From Actinomadura sp. J1-007 (GTDB taxonomy: Bacteria > Actinomycetota > Actinomycetes > Streptosporangiales > Streptosporangiaceae): 64,000 nt of DNA. The notes below the pieces were generated by a model, which searched no databases, was not told where the DNA came from, and saw only the letters and a list, made by a program, of their open reading frames with translations. The stretch spans positions 1,054,001 through 1,118,000 of the forward strand of contig NZ_WING01000001.1 in NCBI RefSeq assembly GCF_009793335.1. The letters are read 5' to 3'. How positions within the stretch are numbered: the first letter of the stretch is position 1; each line of letters starts with the position of its first letter. This document shows positions 3,058 to 15,399 of the stretch, piece after piece. Made by a program: the position numbers and the translations under genes.

Positions 3058-3093
3058 GCGGGGCGTATGCCGGCTTCCCGGCATACGCCCCGC
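3058..3093 (+). terminator. strong hairpin after chitinase
   Basis: A perfect 16-bp inverted repeat (3058-3073 with 3078-3093) and a 4-nt loop lie 24 nt after the chitinase stop. There is no U-tract, which is common for actinomycete terminators. Confidence 0.8.
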
Positions 3094-3215
3094 CCGTGTC
3101 CGCCGGGAGCCGCGCCGCGGGGCAGGTCGCCGCCGGTGCCGACCCGGCCACTACCGGGCGGCGATCGTCCTGGCCACCATCCCGCCGTGGACCAGTACAC
3201 GATCCACCGGACAGG

Positions 3216-3288
3216 CCCTAGGGGACTTCCCTTACGCCGGGCGGCGTACCGCGGGGGCGGGGGCGACGTCTCCAGCGGTACGGGAAGT
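3216..3288. promoter_or_regulatory. inverted GGGAAGT/ACTTCCC elements upstream of the alternative oxidase
   Basis: The region holds CCCTAGGG (3216-3223) running into GGGACTTCCC, with ACTTCCC at 3225-3231 mirrored by GGGAAGT at 3282-3288. The GGGACT core resembles one half of DevR/DosR-type hypoxia boxes. The second half does not match that consensus, so the regulator is unidentified. The position, 50-125 nt before the oxidase start, suits a promoter. Confidence 0.3.
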
Positions 3289-3339
3289 GACTCTTCGCGG
3301 CCGACGTGCGGGCCCGTACCGTCCGCGCAGGATCAGGGC

Positions 3340-4056
3340 ATGACGATCACAGAGACGTACCCGGCCACCACCGGCCCCCGTGCGGGCGGGCCGCCCAAGC
3401 TCTCGCCGTGGGAGCTGCGCGCCGCCCAGATCGAGACGCTGGAGAACCCGCGGCTGCGCTACGGACTGCTCGCGCGGATGCTCTTCAAGCAGATGGACCT
3501 GGTGTACGGGCGCGAGCGCACGCTGGTGAAGTTCACCATGCTGGAGTTCATCGCGCGCGTCCCGTACCAGGCGTGGGAGCGGATGGGCTACCTCTCGCTC
3601 GCCCGCCACCGCCGCCGCTCCGCGCTCGCCAAGCGGGTGTACGAGCGGATCGTGGAGACGCGGGAGGAGCAGGACAACGAGCAGTGGCACCTGCTGATCC
3701 TCCAGGACCTCGTCCAGCGGGAGGGGCACCGGCAGTCGTTCCTGCTGCACCGCGTCGCGCCGTGGCTCGTGGCGTTCTTCTACTACCACGTGTCGTGGAT
3801 GCTGTTCCTCGTGCGGCCGGAGGCGAGCTACCGGCTGAACGCCGACTTCGAGGACCACGCCGAGCACGAGTACATGGCGTTCGTCGCCGAGCACCCGGAG
3901 CTGGAGGACGCCGCCGCCCCCGCCACGTACGCCGAGGAGTACGGCCGCTACGCCTCCCTCGCCGACCTGCTCCGCCAGATCGGCCACGACGAGCGGACCC
4001 ACAAGCAGGACAGCCTGGCCAACCTGCGCGCCCCCCGCTTCCAGGACACCCCGTGA
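3340..4056 (+). CDS. aox: alternative oxidase (di-iron quinol:O2 oxidoreductase)
   Basis: A 238-residue protein of the alternative oxidase family (PF01786 type), which oxidises quinol and reduces O2 to water at the membrane without pumping protons. All four helical iron-ligand motifs are visible: E69 in MLEFIARVP (equivalent of LET..GVP), E114QWH117, the E171DHAEHEY segment, and E218RTH221. A hydrophobic stretch around 141-158 fits the membrane-facing helices. Upstream in-frame sequence is arginine/proline-rich and lacks family similarity, so I choose the ATG at 3340, although its ribosome site is weak. It converges on nuoN with 12 nt between the stops, next to a quinone-linked complex I-like operon, which supports a respiratory role. 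Confidence 0.85.
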   Translation: MTITETYPATTGPRAGGPPKLSPWELRAAQIETLENPRLRYGLLARMLFKQMDLVYGRERTLVKFTMLEFIARVPYQAWERMGYLSLARHRRRSALAKRVYERIVETREEQDNEQWHLLILQDLVQREGHRQSFLLHRVAPWLVAFFYYHVSWMLFLVRPEASYRLNADFEDHAEHEYMAFVAEHPELEDAAAPATYAEEYGRYASLADLLRQIGHDERTHKQDSLANLRAPRFQDTP

Positions 4057-4068
4057 CCGGGTCCTCCG

Positions 4069-5445
4069 CTACAGGGAGAGGGCTATGCCGCTGGCGAGGC
4101 CGAGGGCGAGGGAGGCGGCGGCGAGCGCGACCGCGATCGCCGTCGGCGCGCGGGCCGGGCGGAGGCCGGGCCGAGGCTTGCCGAACGTGGGGACGATCCA
4201 GCGCAGGTAGTAGAAGACGCTGGCCACGGAGTTGACGGCGGCGAGGACGGCGAGCCACGCGTAGTGGCCGTCGAGCGCCGCGCCGAACATCAGCACCTTC
4301 CCGACGAACACGGCGGTCGGCGGCGTTCCGACGAGGCCGAGCAGGCAGACCGCCAGGGACGCGCCGAGGAGCGGCGAGGCGCGCAGCAGGCCCGTGTAGC
4401 CGTCCAGGTCGTCCCGTCCGACCGCCACGACGACGGCGAACGCGCCGAGGTTGGTGACCGCGTAGGCGGCGGCGTAGTAGAGCAGGGCGGGTTCGGCGAG
4501 GTCGCCGCGGGCGGCCATCGCGACGGGGACGAGCAGGTAGCCCGCCTGGCTGACCGTGGAGTACGCGAGCAGGCGCCGCACGTTGTCCTGGCCGAACGCG
4601 GCGAGGTTGCCGAGCGTCATCGTGGCGGCCGCGACGACCGCGACGAGCGGCGCCCAGTCGAACGTGCCGGGCGGCAGCGCGTCCGCGCCGAACCGGAGCA
4701 GCGCCGCGAACGCGCCGATCTTCGGGACCGTCGTGGCGAACGCGGCGACGACGGGCGGCGCGCCCTCCGCGACGTCCGGCACCCAGTAGTGGCCGGGGAC
4801 GGCGCCCGCCTTGAACAGCAGCCCGGCGAGCAGCGCCACGACGGCCGCGCCGACGGCGGCGGCGGGCGCCGTCCCGAGCCCGTCGCGCAGCGGCCCGTAC
4901 GCCGTGCCGCGCCCGACGCCGTACAGCAGGGTGGCGCCGGCCAGCATGAGGATGCCGAGGAACGCGCCCATCAGGTAGTACTTCAGCGCCGCCTCGGTGC
5001 CGGGCGCGTCCTTGCCGAACCCCGCGAGCGCGTACGCGGGGATGCTCGCGAGCAGGTACGCGGCGACGAGCACGAGCAGGTCCGACGACGCCCCGAGCGT
5101 GATCGCGCCGAGCGCCGACAGCATCGTCAGCACGTAGAACTCGGTCTCGCGCGGGTGGCCGCGGACCGTCGCGGCGGCGAGCGCGATGACGGCGGCGGTG
5201 GTGGCGAGGACGGCGATCCGGGTGACGTGCGTGATCGGGTCGATCGCGAACGCGTCGAACGCCGCCAGGTCGGGCCTGGTCGCGGCGAGGCCCGCCACGA
5301 CCAGGCCGGCCAGCAGCCCGGCCGCGCACACGCCCGCGACCCACCACTGCCGGGCGCGGGGCAGGAACAGCCCGTTGACCAGGCCGAGCACGGCGGCGAT
5401 CAGCACGCACAGCTCGGGGGCGAGGTCGGCGGGGTTCTCGTTCAT
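4069..5445 (-). CDS. nuoN: complex I membrane subunit NuoN
   Basis: A 458-residue antiporter-like subunit of the NDH-1 membrane arm and last gene of the nuo operon. It is hydrophobic throughout (about 13-14 predicted helices). It keeps family landmarks: LLFKAGAVPGHYWVPDV (the lysine of transmembrane helix 7 and the following loop), FVGKVLMF near helix 12, and GLPNR-free antiporter repeats similar to NuoL/M. The start ATG at 5445 overlaps the nuoM stop as ATGA, so it is translationally coupled. It converges with the alternative oxidase. The assignment to N rather than M rests on operon position and the MNENPADLAPEL-type N-terminus. Confidence 0.9.
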   Translation of the reverse strand: MNENPADLAPELCVLIAAVLGLVNGLFLPRARQWWVAGVCAAGLLAGLVVAGLAATRPDLAAFDAFAIDPITHVTRIAVLATTAAVIALAAATVRGHPRETEFYVLTMLSALGAITLGASSDLLVLVAAYLLASIPAYALAGFGKDAPGTEAALKYYLMGAFLGILMLAGATLLYGVGRGTAYGPLRDGLGTAPAAAVGAAVVALLAGLLFKAGAVPGHYWVPDVAEGAPPVVAAFATTVPKIGAFAALLRFGADALPPGTFDWAPLVAVVAAATMTLGNLAAFGQDNVRRLLAYSTVSQAGYLLVPVAMAARGDLAEPALLYYAAAYAVTNLGAFAVVVAVGRDDLDGYTGLLRASPLLGASLAVCLLGLVGTPPTAVFVGKVLMFGAALDGHYAWLAVLAAVNSVASVFYYLRWIVPTFGKPRPGLRPARAPTAIAVALAAASLALGLASGIALSL

Positions 5446-6956
5446 CGCGCCACCAGCGCCACGACGGCGTCCGACAGCGGCGCGATCGTGTCGAGCAGCG
5501 GGCGCGGCGCGACGCCGACGGCCAGCGACAGGACGAGCAGCGGCGCGATCGCGGCCAGCTCGGGACGGCGCACGTCGGTGACCCGTCCCGTCAGCTCGCC
5601 GGGACCGCCGAGCAGCACGCGGTGCAGGACGCGCAGGAACAGTCCCGCCGTGACGAGGACGCCGAGCACCGACAGCGCCGCCGCGGCGGCCACCCCGGCC
5701 CGCCCGGCGCCGATCGCGCCGGTGAAGATCTGGAACTCGGCGACGAAGCCGGACAGGCCCGGCAGCCCGAGCGACGCGAACGCCGCCACCGCCGTCAGCC
5801 CCGCGAACACCGGCGCGCCCCGCGCGACGCCGCCGTACCGGCCGATGGCGTAGCTGCCCGCGCGGTCGCTGAGGACGCCGCACAGCAGGAACAGCGCGCC
5901 GGTGACCAGCCCGTGGCTGACCATCTGCGTGACCGCGCCGCTCACCGCCAGCTCGCGGGCGGCCGTCCCGCCGGAGAACCCGGCCGCGCCGAGCGCGAGG
6001 ACGACGTAGCCCATGTGGTTGACGGAGGTGTAGGCGACGAGCCGCTTCAGGTCGTCCTGCGCCAGCGCGACGAGCGCCCCGTACAGGACGCCGAGGAGGC
6101 CGATCACCAGCGGCACCCACGCGTAGCGGCGCCACGCGTCGGGCAGCATCGGCATCGCGATCCGGACGAGGCCGTACGTCCCCATCTTCAGCATGATCCC
6201 GGCCAGCACCGCCGAGCCCGCCGCGGGCGCGTCGGTGTGCGCGGGCGGCAGCCAGGTGTGGAACGGCACGACCGGCGTCTTCACGCCGAGCCCGATCCCG
6301 ATCGCGAGGAGCGTCAGCGCGGCGAGCCCCGGGGAGCCGTCCAGCGGCGGACGCCGGATCAGCTCGACCATGTCGAACGTGTGCGGGTCGGCCCCGAGGT
6401 ACAGGCCGATGAAGCCGAGCAGCAGCACCAGCGACCCGAGGAACGTGTAGAGGAAGAACGTCAGCGCGGAACGGGCCCGTTCGCCGTGCCCCCAGAGCAG
6501 GATCACGAAGTACATGCCGACGATCGACAGGTCGAAGAACACGAAGAACAGCAGCAGGTCCAGCGCCGCGAACAGCCCGAGACACACCGTCTCCAGGAAC
6601 AGGAACAGCACGGCGAACGCCCGGAGCCGGTGCTCCTGCCGTACGGAGTAGACGGCGCAGGCGAGGAACAGCAGCGCGGTGAGCGCGAGCAGCGGCATCG
6701 ACAGGCCGTCCACGCCGACGTGGTAGCCCGCGCCGACCGACGGGATCCAGCGGGCGTTCTCCTCGTACGCGATGCCGTCGCTTCCCGCGCCGCCGCCCGT
6801 TCCGTACCGGATCCACAGGGCGGCGACGAGGGCGAGGTCCACGGCCGACGTCCCGATCCACGCCGCGAGGACCGCACGGCGCGGCGCCCGCGGCACGGCG
6901 GCGAGGCCGAGCGCGGCGGCCAGCGGAAGGAAGATCACCAGTGAGAGCACGGTCAC
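5442..6956 (-). CDS. nuoM: complex I membrane subunit NuoM
   Basis: A 504-residue antiporter-like proton channel subunit. The NuoM hallmarks are present: FFDLSIVGMYF (glutamate-bearing helix region after a QEHRLRAF loop), GLGVKTPVVPFHTWLPPAH (key lysine and histidine), and DDLKRLVAYTSVNHMGYV. The GTG start at 6956 overlaps the nuoL stop as GTGA. In the usual EPxF/LFFE position the sequence reads LLLFFVFFDLS, so the conserved acidic residue is Asp rather than Glu. This may be tolerated, and I would not call the protein inactive from it. Confidence 0.92.
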   Translation of the reverse strand: MTVLSLVIFLPLAAALGLAAVPRAPRRAVLAAWIGTSAVDLALVAALWIRYGTGGGAGSDGIAYEENARWIPSVGAGYHVGVDGLSMPLLALTALLFLACAVYSVRQEHRLRAFAVLFLFLETVCLGLFAALDLLLFFVFFDLSIVGMYFVILLWGHGERARSALTFFLYTFLGSLVLLLGFIGLYLGADPHTFDMVELIRRPPLDGSPGLAALTLLAIGIGLGVKTPVVPFHTWLPPAHTDAPAAGSAVLAGIMLKMGTYGLVRIAMPMLPDAWRRYAWVPLVIGLLGVLYGALVALAQDDLKRLVAYTSVNHMGYVVLALGAAGFSGGTAARELAVSGAVTQMVSHGLVTGALFLLCGVLSDRAGSYAIGRYGGVARGAPVFAGLTAVAAFASLGLPGLSGFVAEFQIFTGAIGAGRAGVAAAAALSVLGVLVTAGLFLRVLHRVLLGGPGELTGRVTDVRRPELAAIAPLLVLSLAVGVAPRPLLDTIAPLSDAVVALVAR

Positions 6957-8947
6957 CCGATCAGGACGGCGATGAGGACGAGCGCGGCCAGCAGCACCGC
7001 GGCCTGCGCGTAGTAGGTGTGGACCTGCCCGGTCTGCGGGCGGCGCGCCAGGACCGCGAGGCGCCGCGCCCCGCGGCCGACCGCGGCGACCAGCCCGTCC
7101 ACCCGGACCTCCACGCGCCGCGCCGCCAGCCCCGCCGCCCACGGCCCGGCCCGCGCGACGCCGCGCACGCACCCGTGCACCACCCGGTCGTCGAACGCGG
7201 CGAGCACGCGGGCCGCACCGAACACCGGCCGCACGACAACGACGTCCACCGCCCGCTCCAGCCCGAGCCACCCGAACGCCCACGCGGACGCGATCGGGGC
7301 GGTGCGGCGTCCGGCGAAGGCGACGACCGCGGCCAGCGTGGCGGCGGCGAGTACCCCGGACACGGCGAGTTCGGACGCGTCCGGGCCGTGCTCTCCCGGC
7401 ACGCCGAGCGCCCGCCGCCACGGGCCCGCGACCCCCGGCAGGCCGAGAACGCCCAGCGCGCACGCCGCGACCGCCAGGACGGGCAGCGGCAGGACCCGCA
7501 GCGCTCCGACCCGTTCACCCGACGACGCCCCGGGCTCGGGCTCGGGCTTGTGCGCGGGCTCGGGCGCGGGCTCGGGTGCGGGACGCCAGACGGCCAGCAG
7601 CGCCTTGGCGGCGTAGGCGGACGACAGCACGGACGCGGCGAGTCCGAGCACGTAGAGGGCGGGCGAGACGTCCCGGGCGGCGGCGAGGACGGAGTCCTTG
7701 GTGATCCACAGCGACAGCGGCGGCAGCCCGGCCAGCGCGAGCGCGCCCGCCGCGAACGCGACGCCGACGACCGGGTGGCGGCGCGCGGCTCCGCGCAGCC
7801 CGTCCAGGTCCTTGGTGCCGAGAACGGCGAGCCAGGCGCCCGCGCACAGGAACAGCAGGCTCTTGACCGCCGCGTGCGCGACCAGGTGCGCCGTCCCGCC
7901 CGCGACCGCACCGGTGCCCGCGCCCAGCACCATGAACCCGATCTGCGCGCACGTCGAGGCGGCCAGGAGCTGCTTCAGATCCGTCTGGGCGAGCGCGACG
8001 GCGCCGAGCAGCAGCGCGGTGAGCGCACCGGCCCACGCGACGAGCGGCCCCGCCCAGCCGGTGGCGTCCAGCAGCGGGCGCAGGCGCAGCAGCAGGTACG
8101 CGCCGGCCGCGACCATCGTGGCGGAGTGCAGCAGCGCCGACACCGGGCTCGGACCCGCCATCGCCCGCGACAGCCAGAACGAGAACGGGAGCTGCGCCGA
8201 CTTCCCCAGCGCCGCGACGACGATCCCCGCCGCCACGAGATCCCGCCAGGGCTCGCCCGTACCCGCGAGCCCGCCGAGCAGGAGCGCCCCCGCCCCCGGA
8301 CCGGCTCCGCCGTCCGCCGCGCCCGCCGCGCCCGCACCCGCCGCGCCCGTTCCGGCGACGGCCGTTCCGGCGACGGCGAGCCCAGCCGCAGCGTAGAGGC
8401 CGAGGTCGCCCGCGCGGGTCGTGAGGAACGCGACGCCGGCCGCGCGCACCCGCCCGCCGTCCGCCCACCAGTACCCGATGAGCGCGTACGACATGGCGCC
8501 CATGACCTCCCAGCCCATCAGCAGCAGGACCAGGTCCGTCGCGGTGACCGCCACGAGCATCGCCCCCGCGAACACGAGCATCAGCCCGAAGAACCGCGCC
8601 TCCCGTACCTCCCCCTCGCCCCCGCCCCCGTTATCGCCTACGCCTACGCGCACGCCTGCGCGCTCGTGCTCGCGGCCGGCCGCCGCGTACAGCAGGACGG
8701 CCAGCGTGATCGCGGCGACCGTCACGGCCATGGCGGCGGACAGGCCGTCCACGGCGAGGCCCGAGTCCCAGCCGGGCAGGAACCGGAAACGCGCGCGCGG
8801 ACGTACGGCCGCGGCGGCGACCGCCAGCGCGAGCACCGCCGCGGCCACCGCGACGCCGGCGCGCGGCGCGTACCGGTCGGCGCGGCGCCCGCACAGCAGC
8901 AGCGCCCCTCCGGCCAGGAGCGGCGTCGCGACGAGGGCCCAGATCAT
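6953..8947 (-). CDS. nuoL: complex I membrane subunit NuoL
   Basis: A 664-residue largest antiporter-like subunit, carrying the distal proton channel and the C-terminal lateral helix. Recognisable blocks are LLLMGWEVMGAMSYALIGYW, GKSAQLPFSFWLSRAMAGPSPVSALLHSATMV and DLKQLLAASTCAQIGFM. Two low-complexity inserts stand out: an Ala/Gly-rich loop near residue 200 and a Pro/Glu-rich loop (PAPEPAPEPAHKPEPEP) near 460. The ATG start at 8947 overlaps the nuoK stop as ATGA. It is coupled with its neighbours on both sides. Confidence 0.93.
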   Translation of the reverse strand: MIWALVATPLLAGGALLLCGRRADRYAPRAGVAVAAAVLALAVAAAAVRPRARFRFLPGWDSGLAVDGLSAAMAVTVAAITLAVLLYAAAGREHERAGVRVGVGDNGGGGEGEVREARFFGLMLVFAGAMLVAVTATDLVLLLMGWEVMGAMSYALIGYWWADGGRVRAAGVAFLTTRAGDLGLYAAAGLAVAGTAVAGTGAAGAGAAGAADGGAGPGAGALLLGGLAGTGEPWRDLVAAGIVVAALGKSAQLPFSFWLSRAMAGPSPVSALLHSATMVAAGAYLLLRLRPLLDATGWAGPLVAWAGALTALLLGAVALAQTDLKQLLAASTCAQIGFMVLGAGTGAVAGGTAHLVAHAAVKSLLFLCAGAWLAVLGTKDLDGLRGAARRHPVVGVAFAAGALALAGLPPLSLWITKDSVLAAARDVSPALYVLGLAASVLSSAYAAKALLAVWRPAPEPAPEPAHKPEPEPGASSGERVGALRVLPLPVLAVAACALGVLGLPGVAGPWRRALGVPGEHGPDASELAVSGVLAAATLAAVVAFAGRRTAPIASAWAFGWLGLERAVDVVVVRPVFGAARVLAAFDDRVVHGCVRGVARAGPWAAGLAARRVEVRVDGLVAAVGRGARRLAVLARRPQTGQVHTYYAQAAVLLAALVLIAVLIG

Positions 8948-9246
8948 CCCTTGAGGTCCCCGGCGTCGTCGGTCATGTCCACGTCCCGGGCCCGGAACAG
9001 CGCGGTGACGACGGCGAAGCCCATCGCCATCTCCAGCGCCATCACCGTGATCGCGACGAGCAGCAGCACCTGCCCGTCGGCGTTCGGCGCGACGCGCAGC
9101 CAGAACCCGGCGCCCGCCACCACCACCCCGTTGATCATGAGCTCCAGGCCCATCATCAGCATCACGATCGACTGCTGCGACAGCGCCCCGAACAGCCCGA
9201 CGCAGAACAGCGCCGCCGCCACCAGCAAGAACGCCTCCAGGCTCAC
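8944..9246 (-). CDS. nuoK: complex I membrane subunit NuoK
   Basis: A 100-residue, three-helix subunit homologous to MrpC/NuoK. The GTG start overlaps the nuoJ stop as GTGA. The helix-2 motif MLMMGLELMINGVVVAGAGF carries the conserved glutamate of the proton path, and helix 3 carries a second (MALEMAMGFAVVTALF). The C-terminus is short and acidic (DVDMTDDAGDLKG). Size and motifs are typical. Confidence 0.93.
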   Translation of the reverse strand: MSLEAFLLVAAALFCVGLFGALSQQSIVMLMMGLELMINGVVVAGAGFWLRVAPNADGQVLLLVAITVMALEMAMGFAVVTALFRARDVDMTDDAGDLKG

Positions 9247-9794
9247 CCCGCACCACCGCCGTTCGCGCCGTCCCCGCCCGCGCCGTCCCCCTCGGCGCGG
9301 CCGTAGCGGCCGCCGCGGACGGCCAGCACCACCGAGGCGATCATGGTGGCCAGGATCGCGATCCCGATCACCATCATGACCAGCATCTTCGGGCCCATCA
9401 GCGCCATGCCGAGGTCGGCCGTCGGGTCGGCGGGCGGGCGGCCGCGCCGTTCCGGCCAGCGGACGAGGAGGATCCCCGCCGCCATCACGGCGAAGAGCCC
9501 GCCGGAGACCAGCAGCGCGCCGCGCCGGTTGTGCACCATCGTCATCGGCATCAGCCCGGCCGGGTTCATCATGTACATGATCATGAAGACGGCCATCACC
9601 AGCATCTCCATGACCATCATCAGGACGACCAGCGCGCCGAGGTACTGGAGGCCCGCGAGCAGCAGCAGCCCCGCCACGCACAGGAACGACGCGAGCAGCG
9701 AGAACGTCGCCCGCGCCATCGAGTCGACCGCGAACACCGCGACGCCGGTCCCGACCGCCGCGGCGGCCAGTGCCCAGAACGCGAACGTCTGCAT
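9243..9794 (-). CDS. nuoJ: complex I membrane subunit NuoJ
   Basis: A 183-residue subunit with about five predicted transmembrane helices. The conserved helix-3 block GLQYLGALVVLMMVMEMLVM is present, though family members more often read YVGAIVVLFLFVVMM. The C-terminal tail is Gly/Ala-rich and hydrophilic. ATG start at 9794, 9 nt after the nuoH stop. A methionine-rich run (MAVFMIMYMMNPAGLMPMTM) in the middle is unusual and is supported by clear coding bias. Confidence 0.88.
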   Translation of the reverse strand: MQTFAFWALAAAAVGTGVAVFAVDSMARATFSLLASFLCVAGLLLLAGLQYLGALVVLMMVMEMLVMAVFMIMYMMNPAGLMPMTMVHNRRGALLVSGGLFAVMAAGILLVRWPERRGRPPADPTADLGMALMGPKMLVMMVIGIAILATMIASVVLAVRGGRYGRAEGDGAGGDGANGGGAG

Positions 9795-9803
9795 GTCCCC
9801 CCC

Positions 9804-10700
9804 TCAGTCCAGGACGACGATTCCGACGACGAGCATCTGGAGCAGCGTGGCCGGGATCAGGACCGTCCACGCCGCCGTCATGAAGCGGTCCATCCGCAGC
9901 GCCGGGAGCCACTGACGCGACCAGACCAGCACCGCCAGAACGGCCCCCGTCTTCAGGAGCGTCCAGAGCCATCCCGGTAGGAGCGGCCCGCCGTCGCCGC
10001 CGAGGAACAGCGGGACGGCCATCGCCGCCGCGACCACCAGCAGCAGGTACCGGCCCGCGAGGAACACCAGGCGGTCCGGGCCTGTCAGCTCGACGGCCGC
10101 CCCGCCCGCGAGGTCGTTCCCGGCCGGATGCCCGAGCGGGCCCCAGAACGCCATCGCGACCGCCGAGAGCAGGTACACCGCGAACGCGACCGGCATCCAC
10201 ACCGCGAACCACAGCCCGCCCTGAGCGTGCGCGATCTCGTCCACCCGCAGCGACCCGGCCCCGAGCGCGGCCGTGATCAGCGCGAACATGTGCGGCAGCT
10301 CGTACGCCAGGCCCTGCGCGACGAACCGGTACCCGCCGACGAGCCCGTACGCCGAGTTCGCGCCCCAACCGGCCAGCCACACCGCGCCCCAGACCACGAC
10401 CTCCATCGCGTTGAACCACACGACGCCGACCGTCAGGTCCGCGACCGCGCGCCCGCCGAGCGGCACCACGACCGCGCCCAGCACCGCCGCGAGCGGCAGC
10501 GCGACGACGCCGATCCGCGTCAGGAGCCGGTCGGGCGCGAGCGTGCGGCGGCGCTGCTGGACGAGCAGCCGTACGCCCTCGTACAGCGGGTCGCGGAAGC
10601 CGCCCCCGGCCAGCACCGCGTCGAGCGCGGCGGCGGCGTACACCAGCAGGGCCAGCGCGAACGGCAGCGCCACCACGGCCCAGACGGGGGACTCACGCAT
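9804..10700 (-). CDS. nuoH: complex I membrane subunit NuoH
   Basis: A 298-residue quinone-site subunit at the junction of membrane and peripheral arms. Eight helices are predicted. The family loops are degraded: where canonical NuoH has a highly charged quinone-chamber loop with several conserved Glu, this protein keeps only scattered acidic positions (LRVDEIAHAQGG, DRFMTAAW). The start ATG lies inside the end of the preceding gene (8-nt overlap). The relaxed quinone-chamber loops agree with the partner NuoB/NuoD-like fusion having lost its redox cofactor. Confidence 0.85.
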   Translation of the reverse strand: MRESPVWAVVALPFALALLVYAAAALDAVLAGGGFRDPLYEGVRLLVQQRRRTLAPDRLLTRIGVVALPLAAVLGAVVVPLGGRAVADLTVGVVWFNAMEVVVWGAVWLAGWGANSAYGLVGGYRFVAQGLAYELPHMFALITAALGAGSLRVDEIAHAQGGLWFAVWMPVAFAVYLLSAVAMAFWGPLGHPAGNDLAGGAAVELTGPDRLVFLAGRYLLLVVAAAMAVPLFLGGDGGPLLPGWLWTLLKTGAVLAVLVWSRQWLPALRMDRFMTAAWTVLIPATLLQMLVVGIVVLD

Positions 10701-11820
10701 CCGCGCCTCCCGACAGGTCGGGGTCCAGGCTCGCCACGATCAGCCGCGCCTCGCCCAGCTCCACCCCGTCCAGCAGCTCGGGCAGGACGGCCAGGGCCGC
10801 GCCGGACGGCTCGTCCCGCGGAACGGCCCGGCCGTCGATCTGCGCGAGCCACCCGTCGAGCCGTGCCGCGACGTCGCCTTCGGGGAGCCCGTACCGTCCG
10901 GCGAGTTCGGGCGTGACCGTTCCGACGCCGCGCGTCATCCAGCGCAGCGCCCACGAACGTCCGATCCAGCGCGCGAACGCGTCCAAGCCCGGCGACCGTC
11001 CGTCCAGCACCGCGTCCCGCAACTCCGCGGCCCGGCGCGCCGCCGCGGGCCACCCCGCCACCTCCGCCAGCCGCCCGACGCTGTCGAGCCGCCGCGCGAC
11101 CGGCCGCCCGCCCCAGAACGACCCGCCGCCGCCCCGTTCGACCACCGTCACGTCGGCGGCCTGCACCACATCGCCCTGGAGCGACAGATCGACCCGCAGC
11201 CCGGCGGGCCACGCGTTCAGAACGGGCCCGAGCGGCACATGCAGGACGTCCAGCCGCAGCCCATCGCGGTCATCGGCCCGTTCCGCCATGGCGAGCCCGG
11301 CCGGCGCACCCATGTGATGCGCATGCCCGCCCATATCGTGCCCGCCGTGCCCGTGGCCCATCCCGGCCTGGCCGTTCCCCATCCCCCCGTGCTCGTCGCC
11401 CATCTCCGCGTGCCCGTGGCCCATCCCCTCGTGCTCGTCGGCGCTCTCGGGCGTCCAGAACCCGGCGGCCGCGCGCGCCTGCGCGTCCGAACGCTGCGCG
11501 TCGAGGTCGGCGAGCCGTTCGACGGCGCCGTCCAGCGCGCGGGCGACGTCCTCCGGGGACGTCCCGCCGGGCAGATCGACGCGCGCACGCGGACCGGGGA
11601 CGTCCCGCCAGACGACCTCGACGGCCTCGGCGAGCTCCGCCCCCGGCTCGCCGCACACGACGACGAGTCCCGTCTCGGCGGGGGACGCCGCGGCCCGCCA
11701 ACCGCGCCGCCGCAGCTCCGCCTCCACCGCAAGCCGCGCCCGCGTCCCGTCCGCCGCGGCTACGACGAACGGCCTCGGACGCGCCGCCGCGTACCGGGCG
11801 AGGACCTCCCTCACGCCCAT
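10693..11820 (-). CDS. NuoB/NuoD-like fusion without Fe-S ligands, His-rich linker
   Basis: A 375-residue protein occupying the operon slot where nuoB, nuoC and nuoD would sit. Residues 1-85 align by eye with NuoB: SPAETGLVVVCGEPG and VWRDVPGPRARV parallel SPRQADVMIVAG and VYDQMPEPRWVI. All cysteines that bind cluster N2 are gone; the only Cys is C56. Residues 190-375 parallel NuoD: PLGPVLNAWPAGLRVDLSL, RLDSVGRLAEVAGWPAAARR, MTRGVGTVTPELAGRYGL and EARLIVASLDPD. Between them lies a His/Met/Gly-rich segment (about 129-170, e.g. HDMGGHAHHMG) that could bind metal. Homology is my inference from motif parallels. It overlaps nuoA (10 nt) and nuoH (8 nt). Confidence 0.6.
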   Translation of the reverse strand: MGVREVLARYAAARPRPFVVAAADGTRARLAVEAELRRRGWRAAASPAETGLVVVCGEPGAELAEAVEVVWRDVPGPRARVDLPGGTSPEDVARALDGAVERLADLDAQRSDAQARAAAGFWTPESADEHEGMGHGHAEMGDEHGGMGNGQAGMGHGHGGHDMGGHAHHMGAPAGLAMAERADDRDGLRLDVLHVPLGPVLNAWPAGLRVDLSLQGDVVQAADVTVVERGGGGSFWGGRPVARRLDSVGRLAEVAGWPAAARRAAELRDAVLDGRSPGLDAFARWIGRSWALRWMTRGVGTVTPELAGRYGLPEGDVAARLDGWLAQIDGRAVPRDEPSGAALAVLPELLDGVELGEARLIVASLDPDLSGGADA

Positions 11821-12158
11821 CGGAACGCGCCCTCCCGCCACGCGTACAGCACCCCGACCAGCAGCAACGCGAGGAACAGGAACATCTCCACGACGGCCTT
11901 CGCCCCCATCGACGCCACGACGAGCGCCCACGGGAACATGAAGACCATCTCCATGTCGAACGCGAGGAAGACCATCGTCACCGCGTACCACCGCGCGTGG
12001 TAGCGGGACAGCGCGTGCTCGCGCGGACGGGCGCCCGACAGGAACGGACCGGCATCCACCGTCCCGGGCGGCGCCAGCACGGACGAGACGGCGTAGACGG
12101 CCGCGACCACGGCTCCGACCAGCCCGGCCAGGGCGAGAACGGCGACGTACGGCTGCAT
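11811..12158 (-). CDS. nuoA: complex I membrane subunit NuoA
   Basis: First gene of the operon, 115 residues, three predicted helices. The signature FDMEMVFMFPWALV (acidic pair in helix 2) and the preceding RYHARWYAVTMVFLAFD are characteristic of NuoA. The start ATG at 12158 has an AAAGGGG ribosome site (about 12165-12171). The gene is divergent from the Asp-box membrane protein, so the shared 254-bp gap should hold both promoters. I see no clear -35/-10 pair there. Confidence 0.92.
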   Translation of the reverse strand: MQPYVAVLALAGLVGAVVAAVYAVSSVLAPPGTVDAGPFLSGARPREHALSRYHARWYAVTMVFLAFDMEMVFMFPWALVVASMGAKAVVEMFLFLALLLVGVLYAWREGAFRWA

Positions 12159-12412: not shown

Positions 12413-15399
12413 GTGAGCACATCCGGCGACCATGAGGACCGGGAACGTGCGGCACCACCACCCGTACCCCCTGCCCCGCCCCCGAACTGGGGCCGCCCGA
12501 CGTACGACGACACCAGCGACGACAAACTCGTCGCAAGCTGGCGCGCCACCCCATCCCCGGAGCCCGCCCCCGCATCACCTACGTCCACTCCCGCCACCAC
12601 CCCGGCCCCGTCTACGTCCGCGCCCAATCCGCAGACCGCCCCCGATCCCACAGCCGCCGCGCCCCCGAACACCGCTCCCCCGCAGCTCCCGCCTCCGGCC
12701 GCACCCACTCCCACAGCTCCCGCAGCCACCCCACCGACCGACCGGCCCGTGCAGCCGCTCCAACCTGCACCTGCACCTGCACCTGCGCCTCAGGCACCTT
12801 CCGGCCCCACAGCCGCGCCCGAACACGCGCACCCTTCCTCCACGCCCCCCGCGACTCCGTCCACAGCGCCCGAGCCGCCCTGGACGTCCGTTCCGCCACC
12901 CGCCGAGACGCCGCGTTCCGCAGCCGCGCCGATGCCTCCGGCCGCAACGGCGTCTCCGTCCGCCCGCACCTCAACGCCCCGGCTCACGACTCCATCCGCA
13001 TCGACGCCCTCCGGTACGGGAGCGCGGCCGTGGCCTCGTTCTGCGGCGACGGGTCCGCAGGCTTCGGTGCGTCCGGGAGGGCCGCCGTCGCGTTCGACCT
13101 CCTCGTCGTCCGGCGGTGTGGCCCAAGAAGCGGCCCAAGCACTGCCGCCTCCGCCCCACCCCCGCCTTCGTCCCCGCCACCAGAGGCCCCGCCACCGGAG
13201 GCCCCGCTGGCGGGGGTGCCACAAACGGACGGCTCGTCGTTCGAGCGGCCCCGCGCGACGCCGACACCTCCCCGCCCGGGACCCCAGCGGATCTTCCGTC
13301 CGGGGTTGCGGTCGGGGATCGCGGTCGCGGCCGTGGCGGCGCTCGTGGCGGGCGGCGCCGTGTACCTCCTCCGCGACGGCGGGTCCGGCGGGGACGCCGC
13401 CGGCGGCGGCAAGGGCGGCGAGGGCGGGGCGCGCGACGCGTCCGGGATCTTCGCCGTGCAGCCCGCGCTGTACGACGGGCACGAGCAGTCCATCAGCGGC
13501 GTCGCGGTGCGCGGCGGCGTCGCGGTGACCGTGGGCAGCGAGACCGTGGACCGGCCGCGCGGCCAGTTCCTGGTCTCCGCGGACGGCGGCCAGGGCTGGG
13601 CCCTCGGGAACGTCGAGCCCCCCGGCGACCCGGCGGACGTCCCGCGCGTGGTCGCGGCCGGCGCGAAGACTTGGGCGGCGCTCGGGGACGGCCCGTCCGG
13701 CGTCGCCACCTGGACCAGCGCGGACGGGCGGACGTGGACGCCCCGCGCAGGCGACAAGGCCGTGTTCACCGCCGGCGACAAGGTGACGGCGGTCGCCGCC
13801 ACCGCGTCGGGGTTCGCGGCGGTCGGGACGTCCGGGCAGGGGCAGGCCGTGCTGTGGACGTCCCCGGACGGAACGGCGTGGACGCGTACGACGCCGTCCC
13901 TGCCCGGCGTCCGCCCGGAACGGCTGGCGGCGAGCGGCGACACGCTCGTCCTCCAGAGCAAGGGCGAGGTGTGGCGGTCGGCGGACGCCGGGCGTACCTG
14001 GTCGCGCGCCGAGATCCCGCAGAGCGACGGGTCGTACGGCTCGGTCGTCGGGCTGGCCGCCGGGCCCGGCGGGTTCTTCGCGGCGCGGGAGGGCCGCCGC
14101 ACCAGCGGTTCGTCCAAGCATCCGAAGAGGCGCGGGCTCGCGGTGTTCTTCCGTTCCGCGGACGGGGTGAGCTGGGCGCGGTCGAGCACGATCGACCGCC
14201 GCACCTACGCGCGGCTCGCGGCGTTCGGCGGGTCGGACGCCGGGCTCGCCGTGCTGATCCCGCTCACCGACGGGCGGGTCGCGGTCCAGCGCAGCGGCGA
14301 CGGCGTCACCTGGGACAACGTGGAACGGCTCCCCGGCGACGGCGGGCGGAAGGCGGACGGGACGGCCGCGCTGCCGAAGGGAGTTCTCGTCGCGGGCCGC
14401 CAGGACACCGGCGCGTACCTCGCCGCGCCCGGGGCCAGGCACGGCGACATCGACCTGCTCGGCGTGCCCGGCGCGGTGACGCCCGACCGCACGGTGGCCC
14501 GGCTCGCGTCCGGCGGCGGGACGACCCTCGCGGTCGGCAGCGGCGGCGGCGACGCGGCCGTGTGGACGACCAGGGACGGCGCGTCGTGGACGCGCGCGGG
14601 CGGCACCGGGCTCGCGGGCCCCGGCCTCCAGCGGATCACTGCGGCGGCGTACGGCCCGAAGGGCTGGGTCGCCGCCGGCCGCGGCGCGAACCGCACCCGC
14701 CCCCTCCTGCTCACCTCCGCCGACGGCGCCGCCTGGAACACGGCCGCAGGAGTGCCCGCGTTCAAGGACGGCGAGCTGACCGGCGCCGCGTACGGCCCGC
14801 GAGGCTACGTCGTCGCGGGCCCCGCCGGAACGTGGCGGTCGGACGACCTCACCTCCTGGCACGCCGGGACCGGCGACGTCAAGGGCGCGGAACCGCGCGA
14901 CGTCGCCGCCGTCTCGTCCGGTTACGTCGCGGTCGGCGAGGACGGCGACGGCAAGCCCGCCGTGTGGACGTCACCCGACGGCGGCGAGTGGAGCGCGTCC
15001 ACCGCGCCCGCACTGCCCGCCGGGACGTCGTTCACGCAGGTCGTCGCACGCGGCGACACCCTCACCGCGCTCGCGTCCGGGAACGGGCGGGCCGCCGTCG
15101 CCGTGTCGTCCGACGCGGGCCGGACGTGGCGCGCCCAGCCCCTCCAGGCGAGCGAGCTGACCGCCGCGCTCGCCGGTCCGCGCGGGTTCGTCGTGGCGGG
15201 AAGCCCGGCCGGCGGCTCCGACGTGGCGCTGTGGGCCTCGGCGGACGGGACGTCCTGGCGAACGATCCGCCCGCGCGGGCGCGGCCTCGACGGCGACGGC
15301 GCGCAACGCCTCACCGCCCTCACCGCGCAGGGCGACGGCCTCCTCGCGGTCGGCACGGACGGCGCCACCCCGACCCTCTGGCACACCCCCCTCCCCTGA
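12413..15399 (+). CDS. Asp-box (BNR-repeat) type II membrane protein, frame break in Pro-rich linker
   Basis: GTG start with AAGGGGG at 12401-12407. The N-terminal cytoplasmic part is proline-rich and carries a WGRPTYDD motif. A single transmembrane helix (GIAVAAVAALVAGGAVYLL) precedes an extracellular region with at least ten WxSxDGxxW-type Asp-box repeats (e.g. WTSADGRTWTP, WTSPDGTAWTR, WASADGTSWRT), predicting a six- or seven-bladed beta-propeller. The function is unknown; such propellers bind glycans or proteins. The reading frame moves by one missing base somewhere in about 13110-13170, within C-rich sequence. With it restored the protein is 995 residues. Confidence 0.75.

Follow-up and report, generated by a model that had tools for sequence, protein, structure and literature searches.

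A widespread complex I-like gene cassette without redox cofactors is associated with copper genes in actinobacteria and may encode a proton-driven exporter of soft metal ions

In respiratory complex I, four cysteines of NuoB hold the N2 cluster, and in the large subunit of Group 4 [NiFe] hydrogenases conserved CxxC pairs bind NiFe. GPxHP in NuoD is taken here as a quinone motif, RxGP as the motif of the NuoH quinone-entry loop, and the lysines and glutamates scored in the antiporter-like subunits as proton residues. For the related Mrp antiporter, PMC7419157 describes a cation path that runs through the homologues of NuoJ and NuoK: Na+ is proposed to move past a NuoJ-like glutamate to a site with the NuoK homologue and the helix-5 glutamate of the neighbouring subunit, and the helix-5 glutamate matching that of NuoN contacts the cation. 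In Marinobacter atlanticus, Eddie et al. (2021; PMC8233155) described nuoADHJKL genes located inside a copper resistance cluster and expressed together with its genes; their suggested source of energy was copper redox.

The operon analysed here lies in a 64 kb stretch of DNA (the window) from the 10.3 Mb genome of the actinomycete Actinomadura sp. J1-007. It comprises eight minus-strand genes in the order nuoA, a nuoB/nuoD-like fusion and nuoH-J-K-L-M-N, ending at position 4069, and the fusion gene overlaps its neighbours at both ends through start/stop overlaps. Searches against Pfam and NCBIfam revealed that the other seven genes match the complex I membrane subunits A (115 amino acids; 11811..12158; PF00507, E 4.8e-25), H (9804..10700; PF00146, E 2.6e-47), J (9243..9794; PF00499, E 6.5e-15), K (8944..9246; PF00420, E 2.4e-14), L (6953..8947, with a C-terminal extension; PF00361, E 1.8e-50), M (5442..6950; TIGR01972 above cut-off) and N (4069..5445; PF00361, E 7.7e-47). 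The open reading frames of the operon and their Pfam matches included no NuoC, NuoE, NuoF, NuoG or NuoI. An ordinary second complex I was ruled out, since the electron-input subunits are missing, and the absence of NuoE, F, G and I together with that of the N2 ligands supports the view of the first-pass annotation that electrons cannot enter by the usual Fe-S route.

Two other genes border the operon. An alternative oxidase gene on the plus strand (3067-4056, core from about 3331; PF01786, E 5.1e-13) converges on the end of nuoN; just two of the 80 related loci (L021 and L063) have such a gene alongside, and a general functional link between cassette and oxidase was thereby ruled out. On the other side, a large BNR-repeat protein (13030-15399, plus strand; PF19755 above and PF13088 below cut-off) is encoded divergently from the operon, and its relatives adjoin four other Actinomadura cassettes.

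The second gene of the operon (10693..11820, minus strand) encodes a protein of 375 amino acids that had been proposed from its motifs to be a NuoB/NuoD fusion without cofactor ligands. The translation and an AlphaFold2 model (pLDDT 87.2, pTM 0.83) bore this out, with the middle part of NuoD deleted. The NuoB-like domain (residues 1-120; 11461..11820) and the NuoD-like domain (residues 178-374; 10699..11289) are separated, as previously described, by a His- and Met-rich stretch, here delimited as a 43-residue linker (residues 129-171; 11308..11436) with 10 His, 6 Met and 16 Gly and a pLDDT mostly below 50; this His-rich linker is not universal among the relatives. The fusion gave no match to Pfam or NCBIfam models, and the Foldseek E-values were at least 1.6e-3 for the whole model and at least 2.1e-3 for the N-terminal model. 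A profile of the actinobacterial C-terminal part alone matched NuoD weakly (best probability 25.4, in three collinear pieces), and its link to NuoD was drawn from the fold match and from an indirect comparison in which relatives of the Halomonas protein serve as intermediates.

Every cysteine of the N2 cluster is gone from the NuoB-like domain, as had been claimed, and the sole cysteine of the protein, Cys56 (11653-11655), is not at an N2 position. Fe-S binding by Cys56 was considered and rejected: the residue is at least 90% conserved in 103 sequences, yet alanine replaces it in an Amycolatopsis protein and in Halomonas. In a set of 115 relatives retrieved with the Halomonas protein as query, no column contained cysteine in more than half of the sequences. 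No conserved cysteine was found in the NuoD-like part, where the NiFe-ligand CxxC pairs of Group 4 [NiFe] hydrogenases are absent.

The search for a full nuo operon elsewhere in the genome, which the first-pass annotation had recommended, located a complete nuoA-N set (nuo1) at C1:4005-4021 kb, in which NuoC, E, F, G and I were confirmed by Pfam and A, B, D, H and J-N were also found; the cell therefore does not need the window set for NADH oxidation. A second partial cluster (L008) is, judging by gene order, the likely counterpart of Streptomyces nuo2, and it differs from the window operon in keeping NuoI and a NuoB with its cysteines. Its genes (7156-11695 of the locus; G000:C1:4063-4068 kb) adjoin others resembling 2-oxoacid:ferredoxin oxidoreductase, and a frame of 502 residues (8566-10074) appears by eye to join NuoC- and NuoH-like parts. 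A lone nuoD with GPQHPSTHG is located outside the nuo operons of the genome (L009, 9437-10627, minus strand). The fusion is present once in the host genome.

Homology searches found 635 proteins related to the fusion, the nearest named ones from Spirillospora and Actinomadura; among the 120 homologues listed, the named ones are called hypothetical or uncharacterized, with the single exception of a pentapeptide-repeat protein. When each species was represented by a single genome, a scan yielded 338 stretches encoding a relative, and among the best 80 of these 338, which were analysed further, all actinobacterial, the eight genes were complete and collinear in 77, the other three being cut by contig ends. 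This completeness and the many invariant residues argue against a decaying operon. The cassette is an accessory and patchy set: when the class was sampled evenly, it occurred in 8 of 148 genomes, the host genome included, and in none of the 12 other genomes of the same family listed in that sample. By tblastn, cassettes were also found on plasmids of Mycobacterium, Rhodococcus, Gordonia, Pseudonocardia, Curtobacterium, Arthrobacter, Pseudarthrobacter and Ornithinimicrobium, and of the gammaproteobacterium Halomonas, the carriers being isolates from soil, sediment and sputum. Three plasmid cassettes are seemingly damaged: in L178 (11395-13850) an IS3 element separates an annotated piece of the fusion from nuoH, and in L179 and L184 annotated genes are missing from a plasmid gene table that is itself incomplete. 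Within the complex I superfamily, these cassettes form a widespread, unnamed branch that is redox-free. In the open-access literature, no description of the family, its NuoB part, its cofactor loss or its methionines was found beyond one prior operon (PMC8233155), nor any measurement of transport or metal binding for the family, and the main text of a study of Frankia and metals (PMC4531530) mentions neither nuo nor NADH.

Residues kept and lost in the membrane subunits were determined by comparing alignment columns of 78-81 cassette sequences per subunit with 11-17 canonical ones, taken from 16 operons and the host's own nuo1; only sequences between 0.75 and 1.5 times the median length were retained, which reduced the canonical NuoM set from 16 to 11. 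In NuoL, E147, K249, H274 and K417 are each present in 78/78 cassettes. NuoM retains K224 (78/78), K255 and E405 (77/78 each), with the helix-5 glutamate changed to aspartate (D140, 77/78), and NuoN retains K212 (78/78), K242 and K383 (77/78 each). Two key glutamates of NuoK are likewise retained, with methionines added nearby: E35 in 79/79 cassettes, and E72 as glutamate in 75 and aspartate in 4 of the 79. The helix-5 glutamate of NuoN, found in 15/16 canonical sequences, is leucine in 77/78 cassettes.

The same comparison revealed a gain of methionine confined to a few subunits. Of the 75 conserved columns of NuoJ, 17 hold methionine, compared with 2 of 40 in the canonical set (Fisher P 0.017 for NuoJ alone); in NuoK the figures are 6 of 56 compared with 2 of 46, and in NuoA 4 of 53 compared with 1 of 42; the counts of conserved columns showed no comparable rise in NuoH, L, M and N. 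Gained methionines fall in 23 of 184 conserved columns of NuoA, J and K as against 9 of 872 in NuoH, L, M and N (Fisher P 7e-12), a tally made by hand in which one of the nine is a tie and the columns are not strictly independent. In NuoJ, the segment of helix 3 and the following loop (residues 59-86; 9537..9620) carries MMxMEM in place of the canonical tyrosine: Met60 is present in 81/81 cassettes where tyrosine stands in 16/16 canonical sequences, and the glutamate of the motif lies three residues past that tyrosine position. NuoA retains its aspartate and glutamate (D68 and E70) as FDMEM, with two methionines added, and M69, M71 and M74 are conserved columns. The Halomonas cassette has most of the methionine pattern. 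Methionine-rich helices can also be explained as mere packing.

Analysis of the flanking regions revealed a strong association of the family with copper genes. The gene clusters recurring in the flanks comprise an HMA-domain heavy-metal P-type ATPase, a CsoR-type repressor (PF02583), DUF305, DUF4396, a YtkA-like protein and BlaI/M56 pairs; DUF305 is grouped with copper genes, an assignment supported by its position next to copper-type genes in plasmid records. In 98 background genomes of the class (469 Mb), CsoR occurred at 143 and DUF305 at 169 places, so that 0.30 and 0.36 occurrences would be expected in the 0.99 Mb of flanking sequence; they were found at 6 and 15 of 81 loci, respectively, the flanks having been searched with BLAST clusters, derived HMMs and tblastn and the background with Pfam HMMs, and loci of the same genus not being independent. 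The CsoR count is 6 loci by HMM on open reading frames and 10 by tblastn. By tblastn, a multicopper oxidase, DUF305, CsoR, CopA-type ATPase or HMA protein flanks 27/80 loci, from nine named genera and further assemblies, the CopA-type matches including other heavy-metal ATPases. The other 53/80 loci have no copper gene within the stretch searched, and the window copy has none in its 64 kb; among the other seven cassettes of the even class sample, three have copper-type genes, and in one cassette of that sample CsoR-type and HMA genes stand directly before nuoA. Copper genes accompany 24/57 linker-rich and 3/23 linker-poor loci (P 0.018), a comparison confounded by kinship.

Among plasmid records, copper-type genes were found within the displayed stretch in 9 of 13 (in one of them DUF305 alone) and in none of the other 4, these 13 being drawn from 16 distinct records of which the other three are all from Mycobacterium avium. 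The clearest case is Curtobacterium plasmid pC1a: an HMA protein and a heavy-metal P-type ATPase are followed, after 81 bases and on the same strand, by nuoA and the whole cassette, and a metal-sensitive regulator, DUF305 and a multicopper oxidase are encoded just upstream. The names copZ, copA and csoR are used here for records of the HMA-domain protein, the heavy-metal P-type ATPase and the metal-sensitive regulator, respectively. Operator patterns of CsoR, CueR and CopY were not enriched upstream of nuoA (CsoR-type, 2/81 compared with 17/632 controls). TAGTAG/CTACTA half-sites were found there at 20/81 loci compared with 13/298 other genes, several patterns having been tried, and could represent a BlaI-type operator.

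The recurrence of the relatives among copper-resistance genes and the methionine-rich core of NuoJ, K and A, both of which go beyond the first-pass annotation, point to copper transport. That annotation had also suggested an ion-transport module driven in another way, a direction which the sequence evidence favours. The operon is tentatively read as a complex I stripped of its redox parts that may use protons to drive Cu(I), or a different soft metal ion, out across the membrane, a proposal that falls somewhat short of being probable. A fuller version is put forward with slightly greater reserve: a single conversion of complex I, followed by spread between phyla and onto plasmids, would have produced a redox-free Cu(I)/H+ antiporter, with a dead, cofactor-less cap at the quinone end and with the charge relay of NuoJ, K and A remodelled into a methionine ladder carrying copper out against three proton-conducting subunits.

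To the anatomy, the residue changes and the co-location, which are observed, this mechanism would add several steps. Inward proton flow through the antiporter-like subunits would pay for the movement of the metal, which would pass along a methionine-lined path in NuoJ, K and A, where Mrp passes Na+; Na+ would be replaced by a soft metal ion, for which Cu(I) is the likeliest candidate. The heel of the arm, formerly used by quinone, is probably capped and gated by the NuoB/NuoD stub, to which the His/Met linker would probably present metal. The metal path would not be a simple copy of that in Mrp, since the helix-5 glutamate of NuoN, whose Mrp counterpart contacts the cation according to PMC7419157, is lost. 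That transport would be outward is suggested by the presence of copA, csoR and multicopper oxidase genes alongside. The copper operons already include a CopA-type ATPase, which leaves no obvious need for a further exporter.

Other readings were weighed against the same observations. The cassette could be an Mrp-like antiporter of protons and a non-metal cation, or a regulated proton channel, serving to adjust pH or the membrane potential when metals stress the cell, so that its copper neighbours would reflect shared stress and not the substrate. Most lysines and glutamates of the antiporter subunits are retained, Mrp offers a precedent (PMC7419157), and copper genes are lacking around many loci, among them that of the window; this reading nevertheless appears unlikely, as it leaves unexplained the 17 conserved NuoJ methionines common to the Halomonas cassette and the His/Met linker. 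A pump that moves ions with the energy of copper oxidation or reduction, as proposed for Marinobacter atlanticus because its operon lies among copper genes and is co-expressed with them (PMC8233155), is rather more doubtful: it agrees with the copper context observed here in many genomes, but no electron carrier or sink is evident, since the stub has no conserved cysteine for Fe-S and the quinone motifs are lost. Transport in the opposite direction, in which an importer or loader would feed copper to cuproenzymes such as multicopper oxidase and cytochrome oxidase, is suggested by plasmid loci with nearby SURF1 and ResB, ctaD, or sulfocyanin and a multicopper oxidase; it is considered very unlikely, because the adjoining CsoR-type repressor, P-type ATPase and HMA protein in plasmid records, and CsoR with copper ATPases in another such record, point to export.

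The weakest alternative is suggested by the remaining NuoH and NuoD-like domain. The nuoH-like gene lacks the quinone-entry motif and several carboxylates: RxGP is present in 3/81 cassettes compared with 17/17 canonical sequences, and among nine glutamate columns occupied in at least 16/17 canonical sequences, two are kept and one has changed to aspartate, while the remaining six are lost, one of these within a region of gaps. A quinone-reducing complex I variant with another electron donor, whose quinol in the window would be taken by the alternative oxidase encoded convergently to nuoN, is highly improbable given these losses, the absence of GPxHP from all fusions (0/80), the missing N2 ligands and the rarity of the oxidase gene beside related loci; the earlier suggestion of a coupling to the quinone pool is accordingly not supported.

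If the exporter reading is correct, the cassette would provide a natural test of the long-debated coupling of complex I, being a membrane arm without its redox half and with another driver, and a multi-subunit soft-metal transporter driven by the proton motive force, and borne on plasmids, would join bacterial copper resistance. The membrane genes of the cassette are mostly annotated in plasmid records as NADH-quinone oxidoreductase or complex I subunits, and models in which they are treated as such would then be wrong.

Compared with the described systems, the cassette shares with respiratory complex I (NDH-1, nuoA-N) the seven membrane subunits in canonical order, the NuoB and NuoD folds and the proton residues of NuoL, M and K. 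It differs in having no C, E, F, G and I subunits, in the fusion and shortening of B and D with loss of their Fe-S and quinone residues, in a NuoH without the quinone motif and in methionine-rich J, K and A subunits. Streptomyces nuo2 (SCO4599-4608), as presented in PMC9739823 and PMC3897704, is likewise a second partial nuo cluster of actinomycetes. The Marinobacter atlanticus operon resembles the cassettes in having complex I-like genes among copper genes and, if it belongs to the same family, offers independent support for the copper link from one organism; compared by description, it lacks both nuoMN and the extension of NuoL, whereas the cassette has L, M and N, and the published description of that operon includes neither the NuoB part nor the methionines (PMC8233155). 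Like the Mrp Na+/H+ antiporter (MrpA-G), the cassette is a membrane arm without redox cofactors; unlike Mrp, it has NuoH, NuoA, three antiporter subunits and the NuoB/NuoD stub, and its J/K site is rich in methionine where that of Mrp has histidine and glutamate.
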